A stretch of DNA of 50,774 nucleotides from Clostridia bacterium (GTDB taxonomy: Bacteria; Bacillota; Clostridia; Oscillospirales; Acutalibacteraceae), in the NCBI GenBank assembly GCA_017549285.1, contig JAFYVE010000010.1, positions 1 through 50,774 of the forward strand, in the 5' to 3' direction. Position 1 is the stretch's first letter. Every line of letters starts with the position of its first letter. Made by a program: the position numbers and the translations under genes. Under the pieces are notes generated by a model. The model made no database searches and was not told the origin of the DNA. It was given only the letters and a program-made list of their open reading frames with translations. Shown piece by piece: positions 3,319-10,862 of this stretch.

Positions 3319-4446
3319 TTATGTCCCTTCCTCCAACGCCCCCCGAATCAGGATCGGGCAAATGTCTTTGATCTGAGCCTTTAATTGCTCATTGATGCTT
3401 CTACGCAGGGTGTATACCTTGTACAAATCAACAACGGATCTCTGCATTTTCTCATCCGGCAACGGAATTCCTATTTCATAGAAACGTTCAAGGTCAAGAT
3501 TTGTGCGGATACTCGAATCACTCATAAACCATCCACGACGGTCGCTTTCTTTGCGGGAAAACCACATCATAATATACTCCAGCAGGACTGCTCCGTCTTT
3601 AATTTCAAAAACTGTGTATGCAGGCGAAATGATAATCGGCTCATCCTTGTCGAACAAAGCAATTCGAATACATTCATCGCGACCTGTCTGCATACCGGAA
3701 TATACGAACTGACCTTTTCTGACGATTTTATATTTAGTGAGGTCTACACCATTGGTATCAGCCACAGAAGGCATAAATTGTTTGAAAATATTTATGCCTT
3801 GGACATCAACGATCTCCCCAGTACTGTTTCGATTATCTACTTCAGCCAGTAGGTCACGCATAGGGACCATTGAAGCATTGTGCTTGATGTTATCAAGCAG
3901 CGCATCAAACGTTAGTTTCAAATCCTCCAGCCCGCGCTCGTAGCTCTGCTGGTTGGCGACCATGGCATTGTAGATGTCAACATATTTCTGCTGTGTGGGA
4001 AGATCGGGGAGTTCAATATCGATATCGCACACATCATCCCAATTAAAGAATTCTGTTGAGCTTCCCCACGAACTGTACATCACAAAGCGGTCCATTTCTG
4101 GTCTGTGAAAATACATGTACAACCACTCGTTTAACAACTTGTTTTTGCAATCATCCCTTATACGAAACAGGGTGTAATCTTCTGTGCAAATAACGTTATC
4201 ACTTGTGGTGTTGTACGCAATGCAAAATTTTCCTCCATGTCGAGACGTACGATGGTTATACACAAAGTCTCCAGGATGTATAATACTAAACTTCGTTAAA
4301 TCACGACCATTTAAATCCGCCCTTGTCGACATAAGCAGTTTATCATTGCTTACGCCAACCGCGTATTCGACACCATATTTCAGATCGGCATTCTTATTAT
4401 CTAACCGCTCGATTAATTCGCCAAGTTTGCATTTAGTCAATGCCAT
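3319..4446 (-). CDS. hsdS: Type I restriction-modification specificity subunit HsdS
   Basis: HsdS recognises the bipartite DNA target for both HsdM and HsdR. The 375-residue protein has two target-recognition regions. The first contains DLTKFSIIHPGDFVYN and the second DLTKYKIVRKGQFVYS. Each is followed by a helical spacer (LPTQQKYVDIYNAM... and LPDEKMQRSVVDLYKV...), giving the usual pseudo-duplicated layout. I chose the ATG at 4446 (MALTKCKLGELIE): it has AGGGGG upstream and overlaps the hsdM stop by 14 bp, the usual coupled arrangement. A longer upstream extension would lie wholly inside hsdM in another frame and is unlikely. Target-recognition halves vary quickly, so the recognised sequence cannot be predicted from here. 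Confidence 0.93.
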   Translation of the reverse strand: MALTKCKLGELIERLDNKNADLKYGVEYAVGVSNDKLLMSTRADLNGRDLTKFSIIHPGDFVYNHRTSRHGGKFCIAYNTTSDNVICTEDYTLFRIRDDCKNKLLNEWLYMYFHRPEMDRFVMYSSWGSSTEFFNWDDVCDIDIELPDLPTQQKYVDIYNAMVANQQSYERGLEDLKLTFDALLDNIKHNASMVPMRDLLAEVDNRNSTGEIVDVQGINIFKQFMPSVADTNGVDLTKYKIVRKGQFVYSGMQTGRDECIRIALFDKDEPIIISPAYTVFEIKDGAVLLEYIMMWFSRKESDRRGWFMSDSSIRTNLDLERFYEIGIPLPDEKMQRSVVDLYKVYTLRRSINEQLKAQIKDICPILIRGALEEGT

Positions 4447-6037
4447 ATCCAATCCCCCTGAACGCATCCTCCAGCAGCTTCTGTGACTGTTTTTCCTGTG
4501 CAAGGACATTGCGCATTTCTGCCTGAATGCGACTAATTTCAGTGCCGTAATCAATATCTAAGTCGTGATCAATGAATTCAATGTACTTGCTAGGGACAAG
4601 ACTCCAGCCATGCTTTTCAATTTCTTCAATACCAACACTGCGATACAGTTCAGGCACCTCATAGTGCACTCCGTCTGTACCTTCCGTCTGCCATGTGTGA
4701 TAAATATCTGAAGCTCTTTTGATTTGTGTATCATTCAAGAACACTTTCTTTTTGCCTTCACCCTTAACGGGGTTTTCTATCCATGTGCGCAGATCCATGA
4801 AGAGGATTTCATTCTCACGATTACGAAGGGTTCTGCCGTGATAATTGCCTCCCTTTTTATTCTGGTTCAAAATCCACAAGGTAACGCTGATGTCCGTTGT
4901 AATAAACATTTCACGTGGCAGAATGATAATGGCTTCCACCTTATCATTCTGAATAAGCTTTTTGCGGATTTCCAAGGTGTCGCCATCACCAAGAGCGCCG
5001 TTTGCAAGAAGGAATCCTGCAACACCTTTGGTTGCTCTCAAATGGGAAAGCATGTGCAAAATCCATGCGTAGTTTGCGTTACTCTCAGGCGGAGTAACAT
5101 AGTCTGACCAGCGAGCATCGTTCTTCAGATTGGGATCATACCAGCCTTTTAGGTTGAAGGGCGGGTTTGCCATAATGTAGTCGAAGTAAATTCCCTTATG
5201 CAGATCGTGGGTAAAGGTGGAATCTGCTTCCTCTCCCAAATGGTGGCTGAGTCCACGTAGAGCAAGGTTCATCTTTGCCAGACGGTAGGTGGCGGGTTCT
5301 TTCTCCTGACCGTAAATATTAATACGGCTGATATCGCCCTGCTTCTCTCTGATCAAATCGGCACTCTGGATAAACATACCACCGGAGCCGCAGCAGGGAT
5401 CGTACAGAGTTCCATCGAAAGGTTCGATCATAGCAGCGATCAACTGAACAGCGTCATGAGGTGTGTAGAATTCGCCTTCTTCTTTGGTTGCGTTGACCGC
5501 AAACTCCTTCAGGAAATATTCGTATACGCGGCCGATCAAATCCTTTTCTTCCCCAAATGCCTTGTGGCTGATCTTATTGACCTCATCAACAATCTTCTTA
5601 ATATCATTGGGAGCTAAATTGCGGGTGGTAAAAGTACCCTCCACAAAACAGCCCTTCAGTTGCTTACTGCTGGTTGCCAGGCTATGCAGCGCAGTATCCA
5701 GCGCAACATTCAACTGCGGAGCGGGTGTGTTGATAATAGTAGACCAACGAGCCTCCACCGGCAGATTGTAGGTTCCGTCTGTGAAAGTGGCATCATCAAA
5801 AAAAGCTGCAAAAATTTCCTCATCATCGGGATCCAAACCTTGTGCGATCAGCTCCTGGCGTAACTTCTGAATACCATCCTCAAACTTCTCGCCAATAAAG
5901 CGCAGGAACACCAGTGTCAGCATCATATCACGCTTCTCAAAGAAGGAACCGGAATTGCGCGCCTGACGCAAAATATCTCTACATTTGAACAGAATAGAGT
6001 CCAAATTGATTTTTTCTTCTACTTTTTTCTTAGCCAT
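4433..6037 (-). CDS. hsdM: Type I restriction-modification DNA N6-adenine methyltransferase HsdM
   Basis: The modification subunit transfers a methyl group from S-adenosylmethionine to adenine in the target set by HsdS. It has 534 residues, normal for the family. The N-terminal helical HsdM_N region (residues 10-150) is followed by SAM motif I (LYDPCCGSGGMF) and the amino-methylase catalytic motif IV NPPF (IMANPPFNLKGW). The start chosen is ATG at 6037 (MAKKKVEEKINLD), with AAGGAAGG eight nt upstream; a TTG eight codons earlier would overlap abiEii and lacks a good ribosome site. Fourteen nt separate it from the abiEii stop, and it overlaps hsdS. This places it in the middle of one long minus-strand transcript starting at abiEi. 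Confidence 0.96.
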   Translation of the reverse strand: MAKKKVEEKINLDSILFKCRDILRQARNSGSFFEKRDMMLTLVFLRFIGEKFEDGIQKLRQELIAQGLDPDDEEIFAAFFDDATFTDGTYNLPVEARWSTIINTPAPQLNVALDTALHSLATSSKQLKGCFVEGTFTTRNLAPNDIKKIVDEVNKISHKAFGEEKDLIGRVYEYFLKEFAVNATKEEGEFYTPHDAVQLIAAMIEPFDGTLYDPCCGSGGMFIQSADLIREKQGDISRINIYGQEKEPATYRLAKMNLALRGLSHHLGEEADSTFTHDLHKGIYFDYIMANPPFNLKGWYDPNLKNDARWSDYVTPPESNANYAWILHMLSHLRATKGVAGFLLANGALGDGDTLEIRKKLIQNDKVEAIIILPREMFITTDISVTLWILNQNKKGGNYHGRTLRNRENEILFMDLRTWIENPVKGEGKKKVFLNDTQIKRASDIYHTWQTEGTDGVHYEVPELYRSVGIEEIEKHGWSLVPSKYIEFIDHDLDIDYGTEISRIQAEMRNVLAQEKQSQKLLEDAFRGIGYGID

Positions 6038-6051
6038 GGAATATACCTTCC

Positions 6052-6948
6052 TTATCTCCAACTTGTAGTTTTAGATTCCCAATTACTTAGGGTTTCGTTT
6101 TCTGCTATAATCGCTTCCCAGACCGGCAGGAGGAAGGTTTTGATGCCTTCCATTACCTCTGCAAAGGCCATGTCGGGATTTCCGAGTGTTTTGAGGAAGT
6201 AGCGCCACTTAACCTGCATATCCTCATCCTCTGCAAGGGCGAGGACGCGGTCGAAGCTATCCTTTTCATATGCTGTGCCGCGGTTTTGCAGGGTCTCTTG
6301 GATTGCGGTCTGCAGCTTCATGCCTTCGAAATCAAAGGATCGGGACAGATAATAAATGTCGTAAAAATCCTTCATGCGGCCGGTCAGCTCGAAGCGCTGC
6401 AGGATGGCATCAAACTTTTCGGCAATGGTACTCTCCAGGGAATATGTCAAGATTTCGGGTTTGGCATAACCCTCAAGCTGTGTCTGAATATTTCGACGCT
6501 CAGCACGCGGTACGATCACGTCGCCAACGCCAATATCAACATTGAAGGGTACGCGAACATTCTTTATGTATCCGGTGATCTGCGTGCTGACACCATGGTA
6601 TTTGCGCTGCACTGCAATCGGTTCGGTCTTGCCGGACTTGAATGTTACAAAGTCATTGCCGGTATCAACTGCCAGGATTTCAGCTATAATTTCATCCATG
6701 CGGGCGAGATCGTTGTTGAGACCGCGCATCAGAAAATCCACGTCTACTGTTGCTCGGCTCTCGAAGTTGGTCAGCGTGTAAATGAACAGACCACCCTTAA
6801 GCACGAAGTTCTCCGCGTACTTAGAGCCAGCCAACCGGCGCAGAAATTCCTCCTGGAAAAATAGCTGCAGGCACTGCTGATAACTAATGCCGGATAATTT
6901 TGCTTTGTTTTTCAGTTTTGCAAGAACGGATGCCGCCATATCTGCCAT
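6052..6948 (-). CDS. abiEii: AbiEii/AbiGii-family nucleotidyltransferase toxin
   Basis: Toxin half of a type IV-like AbiE abortive infection pair. Family members are nucleotidyltransferases that halt growth on phage infection, and relatives modify tRNA. Of about 298 residues, the nucleotidyltransferase signature is near the start: VLKGG (49-53) followed by RATVDVDF with the paired Asp 69/71. A helical C-terminal half follows. The start is taken at the ATG in the TGATG overlap with the abiEi stop, with AGGAGTG upstream. A GTG three codons earlier is possible but sits on the ribosome site. The gene runs straight into hsdM after 14 nt, so toxin, antitoxin and restriction genes share one transcript. 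The nucleotide specificity and target are not visible from sequence. Confidence 0.9.
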   Translation of the reverse strand: MADMAASVLAKLKNKAKLSGISYQQCLQLFFQEEFLRRLAGSKYAENFVLKGGLFIYTLTNFESRATVDVDFLMRGLNNDLARMDEIIAEILAVDTGNDFVTFKSGKTEPIAVQRKYHGVSTQITGYIKNVRVPFNVDIGVGDVIVPRAERRNIQTQLEGYAKPEILTYSLESTIAEKFDAILQRFELTGRMKDFYDIYYLSRSFDFEGMKLQTAIQETLQNRGTAYEKDSFDRVLALAEDEDMQVKWRYFLKTLGNPDMAFAEVMEGIKTFLLPVWEAIIAENETLSNWESKTTSWR

Positions 6949-7547
6949 CACAGCCACACTCCTATCAAGTCTTTTGCCAGCTTCTTCACGCGCAGAGGTC
7001 CGGCATATTCCATCAGCTTCGGGATGCTCTTTTCCGGATCTGCGATATATTTTTGAATTGCTTTGTTGAATATCTCTTTGTCCATCTTATTGCGATAGCG
7101 CAGGCAATCGCAAATCAGACGCTCCTTATCATAGATGCGAATGGAGTGACCATCCATGGTTCCGGTTGTCAGCCCCAGCTCCAGTACGGCGGGCTCCACG
7201 TAATACGGTTTTACGAAGGGGTAATCAATTTTGAATCGGGATTTGCCGGAGTCTTTGCTGACTGCCAGGTGCCAGTCGCCTGGAGTACGATCGCTATAAC
7301 CGTAATAGCGAAGCGCTGTGTCCATGCAGAGTATGGCATCAGGGAATAGACGAATCACGGTGCCTACTTCGCTGAAATCGTCCGGATTGATCCACTGATA
7401 ATAGCCTCTGCGGATTTTTTCCACATAGCCGTCTGCGATCAGCTTTTCACGTTGCGGATAGAATATCTTTTCCTCTGCAAGCTGCGTAGTGCGCATCATG
7501 CCGCCGTACTTATCGAATATGCTCTTATAATATTGGACATCGTGCAT
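6948..7547 (-). CDS. abiEi: AbiEi-family antitoxin / transcriptional repressor
   Basis: AbiEi proteins neutralise AbiEii and repress their own promoter through an N-terminal winged helix. Here residues 5-60 (YYKSIFDKYGGMMRTTQLAE... to RRGYYQW) fit that DNA-binding domain. The C-terminal part (CLRYRNKMDKEIFNKAI...) fits the AbiEi antitoxin domain that follows it. Length is 199 residues. The ATG at 7547 has AAAGGAC upstream. It is the first gene of the operon and lies 60-90 bp from a near-consensus promoter. A small inverted repeat, CCGCT-AA-AGCGG, sits in the leader and could be the operator. Autoregulation is known for the family; the operator assignment is inference. Confidence 0.9.
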   Translation of the reverse strand: MHDVQYYKSIFDKYGGMMRTTQLAEEKIFYPQREKLIADGYVEKIRRGYYQWINPDDFSEVGTVIRLFPDAILCMDTALRYYGYSDRTPGDWHLAVSKDSGKSRFKIDYPFVKPYYVEPAVLELGLTTGTMDGHSIRIYDKERLICDCLRYRNKMDKEIFNKAIQKYIADPEKSIPKLMEYAGPLRVKKLAKDLIGVWL

Positions 7548-7581
7548 AGCTCACAGTCCTTTCTAAATTCAATCTAATTGA

Positions 7582-7593
7582 CCGCTAAAGCGG
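7582..7593. promoter_or_regulatory. Small inverted repeat in the abiEi leader, possible AbiEi operator
   Basis: CCGCTAAAGCGG has 5-bp arms around AA and lies just downstream of the -10 box of the abiEi promoter, about 35 bp before the start codon. AbiEi proteins bind inverted repeats at their own promoter. That this repeat is the site is inference. Confidence 0.4.
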
Positions 7594-7610
7594 ATATTTT
7601 TGTATTATCT

Positions 7611-7639
7611 ATTATAGCCAAAGTACACCGAATAGTCAA
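7611..7639 (-). promoter_or_regulatory. Promoter of the abiEi-abiEii-hsdM-hsdS-kinase-hsdR operon
   Basis: On the minus strand: TTGACT (7639-7634), a 17-bp spacer, then a perfect TATAAT (7616-7611). It is the only strong promoter seen upstream of the six-gene defence operon. Confidence 0.8.
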
Positions 7640-7687
7640 TACAATTTTGAAAACAAATTCACTTTCGAGCGGACATTTTGAAAATGT

Positions 7688-7718
7688 GGTGCCATTTTTG
7701 GCACCCTGCGTGGTGCCA
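7688..7718. repeat. Cluster of three GGTGCC/GGCACC half-sites spaced 12 bp apart (left cluster)
   Basis: GGTGCCA at 7688, GGCACC at 7700 and GGTGCCA at 7712: the same hexamer in alternating orientation, each step exactly 12 bp. A matching cluster sits at 8267-8297, on the other side of the excisionase-like gene. GGTGCCA is also the last seven bases of the tRNA-Arg remnant at 8475-8481. Integrase or excisionase binding sites are the likely meaning, by inference. Confidence 0.65.
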
Positions 7719-7865
7719 CGCGATCAGGACTTGCTGTGAAATCTGCGAAAGTTACGGAAAACAGCTTGGCTTTGACCCTAAAATCCTTAAAAATACGGAT
7801 TTTATGCAAGAAACGGATATTGCAGACCCCTTCAAGGGGATAGGCCAGAAAAGTGTTAGGTCTAT

Positions 7866-7903
7866 AAAAATGGAACCTCCAACATTCTTGACATTGGAGG
7901 TTC
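7866..7903 (-). terminator. Rho-independent terminator of the excisionase-like gene
   Basis: Perfect 10-bp stem GAACCTCCAA / TTGGAGGTTC (7873-7882 / 7894-7903), followed on the minus strand by TTTTT (7870-7866). It lies 15 nt after the stop codon of the small HTH gene. Confidence 0.8.
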
Positions 7904-7918
7904 ATCCACTATAAATGC

Positions 7919-8143
7919 TTACATTTCATTATTCTGCGTCGGATTATTCACTGTTTTTTCGCCGTTAATCAAATCGTACAGTGATTCCATATCAACAAGT
8001 ATTTTCTTTCCTGTGTAGATACACTTGACAATACCGTTGTTGCAGAGCGTTCTGATGCAATGTGCAGTAATGGCAGAGTCTGCATCGAGCTCAAGGATTT
8101 CCGATACTGCTTCTGCTATCGTTCTCATTCTGTGTAATGCCAT
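7919..8143 (-). CDS. Small excisionase-like helix-turn-helix protein
   Basis: A 74-residue protein beginning MALHRMRTIAEAVSEI. It resembles the short clostridial helix-turn-helix/excisionase proteins with an AxxEI...D..TAxTxxxIRxLxxxGxI...G.K.LV pattern, which occur near integrases of mobile elements. Here ITAHCIRTLCNNGIVKCIYTGKKILVDMESL matches this winged-helix layout (written across residues 24-54). The ATG at 8143 has AAAGGAGGG seven nt upstream, and the gene ends in its own terminator. It stands between two 12-bp-spaced GGTGCC clusters and close to the tRNA remnant, as expected for a directionality factor of the island. An alternative is a simple transcriptional regulator. No integrase is present in the window; it would lie beyond the left edge. 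Confidence 0.65.
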   Translation of the reverse strand: MALHRMRTIAEAVSEILELDADSAITAHCIRTLCNNGIVKCIYTGKKILVDMESLYDLINGEKTVNNPTQNNEM

Positions 8144-8266
8144 TATAATACCCTCCTTTCATGGGAGGCAATTATCGCAGACAAATTTCATAAAGTCCAG
8201 TAGATCATGTGATTGTTAGCAAACCGTTAACATGCAATTTTGATCGGCGGTGAATCCTTTAAAATT

Positions 8267-8297
8267 GGCACCTTTTTTGGTGCCATACACGGTGCCA
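8267..8297. repeat. Cluster of three GGCACC/GGTGCC half-sites spaced 12 bp apart (right cluster)
   Basis: GGCACC at 8267, GGTGCCA at 8279 and GGTGCCA at 8291, again in strict 12-bp steps. It is the counterpart of 7688-7718, with a different order of orientations. Confidence 0.65.
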
Positions 8298-8437
8298 TGT
8301 TCTAATATCCCAACGGAGATCTCGTCGATATTGTAAAAGATATCGAACTTGTGTGTAATTTCTGCAAAAAACCTCCAGGATATGCCCAACATAGAATATG
8401 TGGATACTGTAAATCCCGCAGAGGCGTTAGCTCTGTC

Positions 8438-8481
8438 CTCCTAAGGGTTAGTTGTGAGTTCGATTCTCGCTGGGGGTGCCA
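8438..8481 (+). other. Detached 3' part of a tRNA-Arg(CCT) gene, probable attR of the defence island
   Basis: CTCCTAA matches the anticodon loop of a tRNA-Arg(CCT). Downstream is a good T arm (GTGAG-TTCGATT-CTCGC, all five pairs formed, one G-T), a 3' acceptor strand TGGGGGT, discriminator G and CCA. There is no matching 5' acceptor strand (ACCCCCA), no D arm and no proper 5' anticodon strand upstream, so this is only a 3' fragment. It is followed within six bases by a strong terminator, as a native tRNA gene would be. Elements integrating into tRNA 3' ends rebuild the gene at one side and leave such a fragment at the other. This suggests that the island lies to the left, with the intact tRNA beyond the window. 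Confidence 0.6.
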
Positions 8482-8486
8482 ATCTT

Positions 8487-8530
8487 AAAAAGCCGAGAAG
8501 CCTTGATTTTACTAGGCTTTTCGGCTTTTT
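8487..8530 (+). terminator. Terminator of the original tRNA-Arg transcription unit
   Basis: Sixteen-bp stem starting AAAAAGCCGAGAAGCC (8487-8502), pairing with 8515-8530, which ends in a T run; one G-T pair. It lies directly downstream of the tRNA 3' fragment. Confidence 0.85.
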
Positions 8531-8576
8531 ATGTTTTTAAAACAAGCGAAAAAACACCAAAAATCGCACGTTTTTT

Positions 8577-8741
8577 CATTAGCAGAAAGCCTTTTTTGCT
8601 AATGAAATTTGTATGCTGAAAAATTCAAATCAAATTTTTGCAAAATTATTCTGCTAATGGAAATTAGCAGATTTTTCGGTTTTCTGCTAATGAAAACCCC
8701 CGTTCTGCTAATATACGATTTTAGAATATTTGTTTGCTAAT
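8577..8741. repeat. Seven TGCTAAT/ATTAGCA repeats in an AT-rich intergenic region
   Basis: The core TGCTAAT occurs on the plus strand at 8597, 8652, 8685, 8706 and 8735, and as ATTAGCA at 8578 and 8663. Most copies extend to TTCTGCTAATG. Two pairs form inverted repeats: CATTAGCA...TGCTAATG (8577-8604) and TCTGCTAAT-ggaa-ATTAGCAGA (8650-8671, perfect 9-bp arms). The stretch 8531-8884 has no gene. The repeats look like a multi-site binding region, either for a regulator of the downstream sigma factor or for an integration/replication protein. Function unknown. Confidence 0.75.
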
Positions 8742-8884
8742 GAAGGCGATAGTTATTAAGTTAGTGTTGTCATATGCTAAAATATAATTTTCAAGATACA
8801 TTGTTTTTGATAAAAAATAATGTTAAACTTTATGTAAGATGAGGTATATAAAATCGGTTTATATAAGTGAGAGGAGGTTTTTTA

Positions 8885-9469
8885 ATGGAAGATAAACAAA
8901 TAATAAAGCTTTTCTTTGCCAGAGCAGAAGACGCACTCCGTATTCTGAGTGAGCGTTACGGAAAAACATTATACAGAATCGCAATGAATATTCTCGGCAA
9001 TCATCACGATGCAGAAGAAACAACAAATGATACATATCTTGCCATTTGGAATGCAATACCACCTAAAGAACCTGACCCTTTGGCTCCTTATGTATACCGA
9101 ACAGGAAGAAATACGGCTTTAAAAAAGCTGGAATATCTCTCAGCCGAAAAACGAAACAGCAGTTATAATTTATCTCTGGATGAGCTTTCGGCTTGTCTGC
9201 CCGACGAAGACATTGAGCATATTTTCAATGCACAGGAAATTGCTGATTCCGTAAATGAATTTCTGAAAAAAGATACCGCTGTAAACAGATATATTTTTAT
9301 ACGCAGATACTGGTACGGAGATTCCGTGGAAGATATATCAAAAGATCTACAGATGAAAAGCGGCACCGTATCGGTAAGACTCAACCGCATAAGAACAAAA
9401 TTAAAAGAACATCTTATTAAGGAGGGTTACTACTATGAAACGCAAACAGGTATTGGAAGTTCTGGATAA
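8885..9469 (+). CDS. ECF-type RNA polymerase sigma factor
   Basis: A 194-residue sigma-70 family protein with region 2 (about residues 8-75, RIAMNILGNHHDAEETTNDTYLAIWN, shown over two stretches: RIAMNILGNHHDAEE then TTNDTYLAIWN) and region 4 (about 115-180), with the helix-turn-helix SVEDISKDLQMKSGTVSVRL. ECF sigma factors direct RNA polymerase to stress or envelope genes and are usually held by an anti-sigma factor encoded next door. The start chosen is MEDKQ (ATG 8885), since GAGAGGAGG lies eight nt before it; an earlier in-frame start overlaps this site. The 3' end overlaps the following serpin gene by 35 bp, implying translational coupling and a functional pair. The TGCTAAT repeat array lies upstream. 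Confidence 0.9.
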   Translation: MEDKQIIKLFFARAEDALRILSERYGKTLYRIAMNILGNHHDAEETTNDTYLAIWNAIPPKEPDPLAPYVYRTGRNTALKKLEYLSAEKRNSSYNLSLDELSACLPDEDIEHIFNAQEIADSVNEFLKKDTAVNRYIFIRRYWYGDSVEDISKDLQMKSGTVSVRLNRIRTKLKEHLIKEGYYYETQTGIGSSG

Positions 9470-10862
9470 AATAGACGACAGATACATCAAGGAATCTGAA
9501 AAGGCTCCGAAAAAGATAAAAAAAACATATTGGATAGGTGCGGTTGCGGCTGTTCTGGCAATAGCGATCTGCATAAGTTCTGTTACTGATTCCGCATTAA
9601 CAACCGCAAAGGCAATTGCTCTCCCCGATGAAGCAAGAGTCAGGGAACATCCCGACCTTGATGATTATAAGGACAGAGAAAGCTATATGGCTGATGTTGA
9701 AAAGTGGGATTCTGAAACAAAGAGCAGAAAAGCAATAAAAGAAAATGCCGTGATTTCATTGTCACCGTTTTTCACACAGGCTTCGGCTGAATTCCTTGCT
9801 TCGCAGAACAATGAAAATGCCTTATGGTCACCAATAAACGCTTATATCGGTCTTTCTATGCTTGCAGAAATAACCGACGATGACAGCCGTAATGAAATTT
9901 TAGATTTGTTCGGTGTAAGCGATATTGAAACACTCAGAAAACAGGTCAGCGCAATATGGGAATCTATTTATGAAGGTGACAAAAATGAAGTATCAACATT
10001 GGCAAATTCACTCTGGCTGAAAAAAGGACTTGAATACAATCAGGAAACCATGAATAATCTTGCTTATCACTACTATGCATCTGTATATCAATGCGACCTC
10101 GGAAGTAAAAAGGCTGATAAATCAATCGGTGAATGGCTTGACGACAACACGGGCGGATTATTGAAAGACAGCACAGATAAAATTGACTTGTCTTACGATA
10201 CTGTTCTTGCATTATATTCAACGCTGTTTTTTCAGGCAAAATGGAGCAATGAATTCAATGCTGACTATAACACCGAGAATGTTTTTCACGGTGTCAACGG
10301 TGATACAAACGCAACATATATGAACAAAAACCTTTGTCAGATGAACTATTACTGGCATGATGATTTCAGTGCTGTGTGTTTATATCTTAAAAACGGCAGC
10401 ACTATGTGGTTTATTCTTCCCGATGAAGACAAAACTCCTGCAGATATTTTAAAAGACGGTGCTTACGGAGAATTGATTTCATCAGGCAACGGTGAAGACG
10501 GCTGGCAGAACAAAAAATATCTGAAGGTCAATTTATCCGTTCCTAAATTTGATGTTTCCTCTTCTTTGAATTTAAAAGACGGACTTAACAGAATGGGCGT
10601 GTCAGAAGTATTTGATATTGAAAGCTCCGATTTTACGGCTATCACATCAGATACGCCCGTGTATGTTTCAGCCGTTAATCAGTCTGCGAGAGTTGAAATT
10701 GACGAAAAAGGTGTAAAAGCAGCGGCTTATATAGAAATCCCCGGTGACGGTGAAGCTATGCCGCCCGAAGAAATAGTTGATTTTATTCTTGACAGACCTT
10801 TTGTTTTTGTGATTTCAAAAGACAGATTACCTCTTTTCACAGGCGTAATAAATAATATATAA
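9435..10862 (+). CDS. Membrane-anchored serpin with an anti-sigma-like N-terminus
   Basis: 475 residues. Residues 1-32 (MKRKQVLEVLDKIDDRYIKE...) are cytoplasmic and resemble the short N-terminal segment of clostridial proteins encoded with ECF sigma factors. Residues 33-49 are one membrane helix. Residues 105-475 are a full serpin outside the cell: the LWSPINAYIGLSMLAE region, the reactive-loop hinge E-K-G-V-K-A-A-A (424-431) and the C-terminal signature DRPFVFVISKDRLPLFTGVI. The alanine-rich hinge is typical of inhibitory serpins. Counting from the hinge puts P1 near Glu440, with Ala441-Met442 after it, but the exact bond is uncertain. Serpins trap serine or cysteine proteases; secreted serpins of the related gut bacterium Eubacterium siraeum (siropins) inhibit host proteases. 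The overlap with the ECF gene suggests a membrane anti-sigma factor whose sensor is the serpin. That link is inference. Confidence 0.88.
   Translation: MKRKQVLEVLDKIDDRYIKESEKAPKKIKKTYWIGAVAAVLAIAICISSVTDSALTTAKAIALPDEARVREHPDLDDYKDRESYMADVEKWDSETKSRKAIKENAVISLSPFFTQASAEFLASQNNENALWSPINAYIGLSMLAEITDDDSRNEILDLFGVSDIETLRKQVSAIWESIYEGDKNEVSTLANSLWLKKGLEYNQETMNNLAYHYYASVYQCDLGSKKADKSIGEWLDDNTGGLLKDSTDKIDLSYDTVLALYSTLFFQAKWSNEFNADYNTENVFHGVNGDTNATYMNKNLCQMNYYWHDDFSAVCLYLKNGSTMWFILPDEDKTPADILKDGAYGELISSGNGEDGWQNKKYLKVNLSVPKFDVSSSLNLKDGLNRMGVSEVFDIESSDFTAITSDTPVYVSAVNQSARVEIDEKGVKAAAYIEIPGDGEAMPPEEIVDFILDRPFVFVISKDRLPLFTGVINNI

Follow-up and report, generated by a model that had tools for sequence, protein, structure and literature searches.

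An ECF sigma factor gene overlapping a gene for a membrane-anchored serpin: a putative serpin-based anti-sigma factor in Clostridia

A 50,774-nucleotide stretch of DNA from an Acutalibacteraceae genome (the window) carries an ECF-type sigma factor gene followed by a gene that joins a short N-terminus and a membrane helix to a serpin. Judged from sequence comparisons, the fusion protein very probably acts as a membrane anti-sigma factor whose sensor is the serpin. The initial annotation had proposed that the serpin is the anti-sigma factor of its neighbor. This proposal was supported by the gene overlap, a shared N-terminal module, co-inheritance, and separate fusions. ECF sigma factors with membrane sensor anti-sigma factors are a known kind of system, and a serpin as the sensor would be a new variation. 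No description of a serpin/anti-sigma fusion was found in the titles and opening lines of abstracts of the literature searched, which omits most subscription journals and preprints. The physiological role of bacterial serpins is said to remain open in excerpts of PMC8201313. If our reading is true, bacterial serpins gain a signaling job, and gut Clostridia possess a direct protease sensor, for example of host elastases or competitors' subtilisins. The pair would also be a natural design for a protease-triggered transcription switch. Three natural arrangements (fused, a separate serpin behind a sigma factor and its membrane partner, and a plain lipoprotein) make the question testable.

The pair sits on contig 5 of 56 of a genome assembly (2.3 Mb, 88% complete) in which the fusion protein is the only serpin match. 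Its features are listed in the table. The sigma factor was assigned to the ECF type by the presence of Sigma-70 regions 2 and 4 within about 190 aa (Sigma70_r2, E 2.8e-10; Sigma70_r4_2, E 3.4e-6; TIGR02937, E 2.3e-19). A longer start of this gene at GTG 8867 was set aside, as the Shine–Dalgarno sequence aggagg (8872-8877) suits the ATG at 8885. Positions 9435-9469 are common to both genes, confirming the 35-bp overlap that had been read from the DNA. The Shine–Dalgarno sequence of the serpin fusion (aggaggg, 9420-9426) is located within the sigma gene, a layout as in translationally coupled genes. The 35-bp overlap is peculiar to this genome. It is 11 bp in seven close orthologues; the sigma frame of the window extends further to its stop than theirs.

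Features of the sigma–serpin pair in the window
Feature	Residues	Positions	Strand	Basis
Candidate promoter of the pair, TGTAAG-N16-CGGTTT		8833..8860	+	Both hexamers exact in 7/8 aligned orthologous upstream regions
ECF-type sigma gene		8885..9469	+	194 aa; ATG 8885; Sigma-70 regions 2 and 4
Complete fusion gene (serpin preceded by N-terminus, helix, and stalk)		9435..10862	+	475 aa; ATG 9435
Cytoplasmic N-terminus, type-A sigma-partner module (putative anti-sigma domain)	1-32	9435..9530	+	N-terminal HMM; sigma tree
Single membrane helix	33-51 (about)	9531..9587	+	Hydropathy
A-K-A, signal-peptidase-like site just past the helix	58-60	9606..9614	+	A-x-A in the window and 7 close orthologues
Serpin domain	119-474	9789..10856	+	PF00079, E 4.1e-64; PDB serpins by sequence
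Hinge and reactive loop	424-453	10704..10793	+	Hinge pattern in 37/37 fused clade-A rows (picking rule favors hinge-like patterns)

Hydropathy, PF00079, and the hinge residues confirmed the 32-residue N-terminus, the one membrane helix, and the serpin with an inhibitory-type hinge described in the initial annotation. Residues 1-32 are charged, and a stalk (about 52-118) connects the helix to the serpin. The orientation follows the positive-inside rule: a lysine-rich stretch precedes the helix, placing the N-terminus inside the cell. An AlphaFold model of the fusion protein (on 11 sequences) was of low confidence, with a mean pLDDT of 53 and a pTM of 0.55; it contains a helix at residues 34-51. 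By sequence, the best solved relative of the serpin is a conserpin (E 9e-32). An A-x-A motif after the helix was present in 42 of 53 fused serpins, and 37.3 were expected from shuffled stalks. Since there was no excess, we dropped A-x-A as a general site-1 signature and kept it as an orthologue-level hint. The N-terminus has 32 aa and neither Cys nor His, unlike class I anti-sigma domains (ASDI), which in excerpts of the survey (PMC7406223) have at least 50 aa and, for some groups, a zinc motif H-x3-C-x2-C. According to the same excerpts, domains shorter than 50 residues were discarded in that survey (PMC7406223), so short N-termini like these would be left out.

The initial annotation had suggested a search for such serpins beside ECF sigma genes, and the pairing was indeed recovered repeatedly. 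A scan of genome contigs for the fusion returned 11 loci: seven close orthologues (L002-L008; 71-79% identical from end to end; four records come from the rectum of roe deer or goat), an eighth orthologue (L009), which ends at a contig edge and is not in the upstream count, and three distant loci. An ECF sigma gene lies directly upstream in 7/7 close orthologues with upstream DNA. The same was found in 3/3 distant loci (32-37% identity; Erysipelotrichaceae and Lachnospiraceae), where the sigma–serpin gaps are -4, +46, and +47 bp; in these, too, a short N-terminus leads into a membrane helix.

Serpins were found in 131 of 398 genomes of the family. From this sample, 30 loci and 99 further stretches were inspected, giving 142 distinct serpin reading frames including that of the window. 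The search for fused starts covered 60 bp upstream to 80 bp downstream of the sigma stop, and 39 of the 142 serpins are fused behind a sigma gene; six of the non-fused ones had less than 900 bp of upstream DNA. All 39 overlap the sigma gene by 4-35 bp (4 bp, n = 22; 8 bp, n = 7; 11 bp, n = 4; 23 bp, n = 3; 35, 10, and 14 bp, n = 1 each). The whole genome of the window has only 12 sigma-region-2 matches; with so few sigma genes and this rate of pairing, chance adjacency is not credible. In class- and phylum-wide samples, five of 58 loci, which were the best matches to a profile of the fused form, are fused (L218, L222, L223, L244, and L245). Two more are probably fused (L217, at a contig end, and L230, with a broken frame), and the rest are unfused. 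L263, taken as fused by a distance rule, was rejected and not counted; it is a lipoprotein 157 bp past a sigma gene. Serpin genes on plasmids were also searched for: 17 plasmid records matched, but identity stayed below 60% throughout, and no match reached 80% query coverage. Within the genus, a serpin was matched in two genomes out of 11, and the remaining nine have none. Besides the serpin of the window, the only one found in the genus is L013, which by eye carries both a signal peptide and a dockerin-like repeat.

A tree of 179 serpin domains (family, order, and genome-contig rows) was built with FastTree, rows with fewer than 300 serpin residues being removed before counting. Fused rows were labeled A when they were neither type B nor O, which put L125 into A; L137_12 was set to A by hand. 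All 37 A rows fell into one clade of 53. The initial annotation had named orthologues with signal peptides and no sigma neighbor as evidence against it. None of the seven close orthologues with upstream DNA is of this kind. In the wider clade of fused serpins, such contrary evidence was partly seen: 16 of the 53 rows, including L013, are labeled uncoupled (for at least L128 and L134 among them, the upstream DNA spans just some 0.5 kb). The seven type-B rows are in another clade, among mostly uncoupled serpins, and the four other fused rows are scattered. With 16 changes between fused and uncoupled on this tree, sigma–serpin coupling is labile. In AU tests on 75 of the rows (quick tree, no mixture), a single clade for A and B was rejected (p 9.8e-5), as was a grouping of all fused rows (p 1.2e-5). 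These rejections call for two or more fusion events, or else for a single fusion followed by numerous losses on another tree.

Serpins are also linked to sigma factors without being fused. Of 131 uncoupled serpins (120 of them with 1.4 kb or more of upstream DNA), 23 are preceded within 1.4 kb by a sigma gene that overlaps a partner gene of its own. Among these 23 partners, 22 have a helix (hydropathy at least 2.0) and three have a type-A N-terminus. The 39 fusions and these 23 neighbors indicated that serpins are tied to ECF systems in both ways. L045, L051, L061, L088, L097, L103, and others consist of an ECF sigma gene, a separate helix-bearing partner, and a downstream secreted serpin; in most of these loci the partner N-terminus is like MRSFEERKAEIFRRSEKR.

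The N-termini of the fused serpins fall into several types. Type A, found in the window, has the consensus M-K-x-E-x-L-x-x-A-I-G-x-x-D, followed by a Lys-rich stretch and the helix. Type B (M-N-x-E-K-Y-x-x-E) is found on seven fused serpins. The N-termini of L014, L044, L046, and L167, and by eye also those of L084 and L125, are unlike both. A type-A HMM was made from fused serpins, with L084 and L125, which do not resemble type A, in the training set. It matched 22 of 60 non-serpin sigma partners at E<0.05 (18 at E<0.001). The type-B HMM matched one of the 60, L077, the partner of another sigma factor in the genome of the window. Only two of 126 N-termini of serpins labeled uncoupled were matched: L137_12, which is actually fused, and L119, at a contig end.

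The sigma factor of the window was then used as a query against 100 family genomes, and related sigma factors were obtained at 33-49% identity. At the 23 related-sigma loci (L185-L207), two partners are serpins, one sigma factor has no partner in reach, and 20 partners are non-serpin proteins. These 20 are helix-bearing and usually overlap the sigma gene by 4 bp. The type-A N-terminus was matched in 19 of them at E<0.05, and that of L185 looks alike by eye. In a FastTree sigma tree of 108 rows, 104 of them different, one clade (support 99) comprises 62 rows; 61 of these have type A, the 62nd being L185. Type A changed twice on this tree, and serpin versus non-serpin changed 14 times. L125 carries a serpin of the type-A clade on the sigma factor and N-terminus of another clade; by its sequences, it is a natural domain swap. 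Partial distance correlations were calculated with 32 fused pairs that belong to neither type B nor type O, after removal of near-copies. The N-terminus correlated with the sigma factor given the serpin (0.48) and with the serpin given the sigma factor (0.31). Both values beat 2000 of 2000 permutations, indicating that shared descent of the whole operon explains part of the co-inheritance. The N-terminus on non-serpin ectodomains, the fit to the sigma tree, L125, and the correlations together mark the N-terminus as the sigma-facing part, a sigma-partner module. We infer that it binds the sigma factor. Ten non-serpin partners were scanned, and none reached a curated Pfam or NCBIfam cut-off. The type-A partners L188, L194, L197, L199, L200, L204, and L205 have external domains below these cut-offs and possibly represent a family of unexplored surface sensors.

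On the serpin side, positions P17-P8 in the window are E-K-G-V-K-A-A-A-Y-I (residues 424-433). As in inhibitory serpins, P15 is Gly and P12-P10 are small; Val at P14 and Tyr at P9 are less typical. P17 Glu, P15 Gly, and small P12-P10 were present in 37/37 fused clade-A rows, a count read with a residue-picking rule that favors hinge-like patterns. In these rows P14 is Val (26) or Cys (11), and P9 is mostly Tyr (21) or Phe (12). Small P12-P10 were also found in 114 of 127 uncoupled serpins. In clade A without the seven close orthologues, the entropy was 0.8 bits for P17-P8, 2.34 for P7-P3', and 1.78 for the whole serpin. By the 17-residue rule, P1-P1' of the window is Glu440-Ala441. A small P1 (Ala, Ser, or Gly) was found in 32 of 37 fused clade-A rows, or 25 of 29 once the window and its seven close orthologues are set aside, versus 39 of 127 uncoupled serpins; Glu in the window is an exception to the small P1 of its relatives. 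At L137, two sigma–serpin pairs lie within 6.4 kb, one with P1 Ser and the other with P1 Lys (17-residue rule). The hinge and P1 patterns fit a bait loop under selection; protease inhibition itself is predicted.

We consider it probable that the pair is a one-signal transmembrane switch, with an anti-sigma N-terminus inside, a serpin bait outside, and release of the sigma factor upon loop cutting. The N-terminus of about 32 residues would hold the co-translated ECF sigma factor at the membrane, and the serpin would offer its reactive loop outside. A serine protease, which by the P1 trend of the family would prefer a small P1 and be elastase- or subtilisin-like, would cut the loop. The cut serpin would trap the protease and refold by loop insertion. 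Refolding would make the stalk next to the membrane accessible for cutting at site 1, perhaps by signal peptidase at A60/I61, and a site-2 M50 protease and Clp would then release the sigma factor. An M50 protease gene is present in this genome, as in 14/14 control genomes. The freed sigma factor would transcribe its own operon and other genes. The proposed proteolytic cascade has its nearest worked example in RsiV, and we infer loop cleavage as a good and the best explanation of the release. Val or Cys at P14 and Tyr or Phe at P9 are unusual for a fast inhibitor, which counts against a switch triggered by trapping. The P1 Glu of the window, the shortness of the N-terminus relative to class I domains, the labile coupling, the nine genomes of the genus lacking a serpin, and the few fusions in the class- and phylum-wide samples also speak against it. 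More tentatively, serpins may have become joined to anti-sigma modules on more than one occasion, as irreversible one-shot protease receptors, in which the conformational change that disarms the protease is also the transmembrane signal. Several pairs with different loops in some genomes could then be parallel channels reporting which protease is at the cell surface.

The conserved hinge and small P1 can also be read differently. The serpin might inhibit the cell's own site-1 or housekeeping surface protease, and the sigma factor would remain bound as long as the inhibitor is in excess and be freed once the protease outruns it. The anti-sigma role is kept here, the signal is the balance of protease and inhibitor, and the anti-sigma factor is destroyed elsewhere than in the loop. 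Conservation of both features over a diverse clade is easier to reconcile with a single bacterial target common to all than with host targets that vary. However, the tandem pairs of L137 differ at P1, and a serpin acts once, which is better suited to a one-shot trigger; we regard this inhibitor-balance explanation as rather unlikely. The atypical P14 and P9 residues would suit a non-inhibitory serpin that senses stress or a ligand (heat, bile, sugar, or peptide) without any protease, and animal serpins that bind ligands without inhibiting do exist. Non-inhibitory serpins usually lose the hinge pattern, whereas the fused clade-A rows all retain P17 Glu, P15 Gly, and small P12-P10 under a picking rule that favors such patterns, and a stress or ligand sensor seems improbable.

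Signaling might also be absent altogether, the sigma factor and a membrane-anchored serpin merely sharing an operon and the N-terminus serving as a signal anchor only. Many relatives do resemble plain secreted lipoproteins, as 69 of 136 uncoupled rows fit a crude lipobox pattern. However, the N-terminal module is common to unrelated ectodomains and is inherited with the sigma factor more than with the serpin, and the sigma gene is overlapped in 39/39 fused family cases. A mere shared operon is thus very improbable, and the protease-triggered switch remains our preferred reading.

Such a switch resembles RsiV/sigma-V, the lysozyme receptor system of Bacillus subtilis, in having an ECF sigma factor and a single-pass anti-sigma factor with a short cytoplasmic N-terminus. 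Excerpts of PMC4183432 and PMC6066255 describe a helix at residues 37-59 of RsiV and a site 1 at A66/M67, which is opened by lysozyme binding outside and followed by site-2 cleavage. The external domain of RsiV recognizes a host defense enzyme, and its signal-peptidase site 1 lies just past the helix, to which A-K-A in the fusion protein is comparable. A difference is that a serpin replaces the lysozyme-binding domain; a Pfam scan with a cut-off of E 1 gave no hit to the RsiV domains DUF4179, DUF4163, and DUF3298. Unlike RsiV, the serpin would act irreversibly and once, as excerpts of PMC10090351 describe for serpins. The combination of one N-terminal module with varied external domains is also known from RsgI, which senses polysaccharides. 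In excerpts of PMC12203970, the SigI/RsgI systems of Clostridium thermocellum (nine in one genome) have a conserved sigma-binding N-terminus and divergent external sensors, and release occurs by intramembrane proteolysis. RsgI has an autocleaving periplasmic domain, and its sensors are carbohydrate-binding, glycosidase, peptidase-like, or unknown, with no serpin named in those excerpts (PMC12203970). The RsgI domain had no match in the fusion protein (Pfam, NCBIfam), and the SigI name was not among the best 25 of 67 NCBIfam hits of the sigma factor.

The serpin of Bifidobacterium breve is reportedly controlled by a two-component signal-transduction pair and autoregulated. There, the kinase pair is said to sense and the serpin to be the output, whereas the serpin is the proposed sensor here. 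The siropins of Eubacterium siraeum are likewise bacterial gut serpins with a small-residue hinge, and they are cut by human neutrophil elastase and proteinase 3 according to excerpts of PMC5127057. They were studied as free inhibitors, predicted to be intracellular (1) and extracellular (2), and the excerpts describe no sigma link (PMC5127057). Cellulosomal serpins such as PinA are clostridial and secreted, with no membrane anchor or sigma link in excerpts of PMC12484212, where cellulosomal serpins and RsgI are treated separately. The serpin of L013, from the same genus as the window, resembles them by eye.

Upstream of the sigma gene, about 85 bp are kept among eight orthologous regions that are otherwise divergent. 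L008 is the region with altered promoter hexamers. TGTAAG-N16-CGGTTT has a shape that we take to resemble ECF promoters. The promoter is possibly read by the pair's own sigma factor, which would make the operon autoregulated. Exact TGTAAG-N15-17-CGGTTT sites occur twice in the genome. No wider sigma regulon was predicted from this genome scan, since the sole site other than the pair's own falls inside a reading frame. With two mismatches allowed, the pattern had seven matches in the window versus 4.0 expected.

Further upstream, type I restriction-modification genes (specificity domain and HsdM) occupy 3319-7547 on the minus strand. An AbiEii-type toxin gene (PF08843, E 1e-44) within this minus-strand region overlaps HsdM, and the gene before it, which has no Pfam hit, may encode its antitoxin. 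By eye, about 8419-8483 on the plus strand resembles the 3' half of a tRNA gene; a search of 7500-8900 gave no complete one. L003 and L007 have similar tRNA-like ends ahead of their sigma genes, and an integration site may thus adjoin the pair. In 8573-8745, which separates the tRNA remnant from the sigma promoter, a 16-mer like TTTTCTGCTAATGAAA occurs in four direct copies, together with inverted copies.
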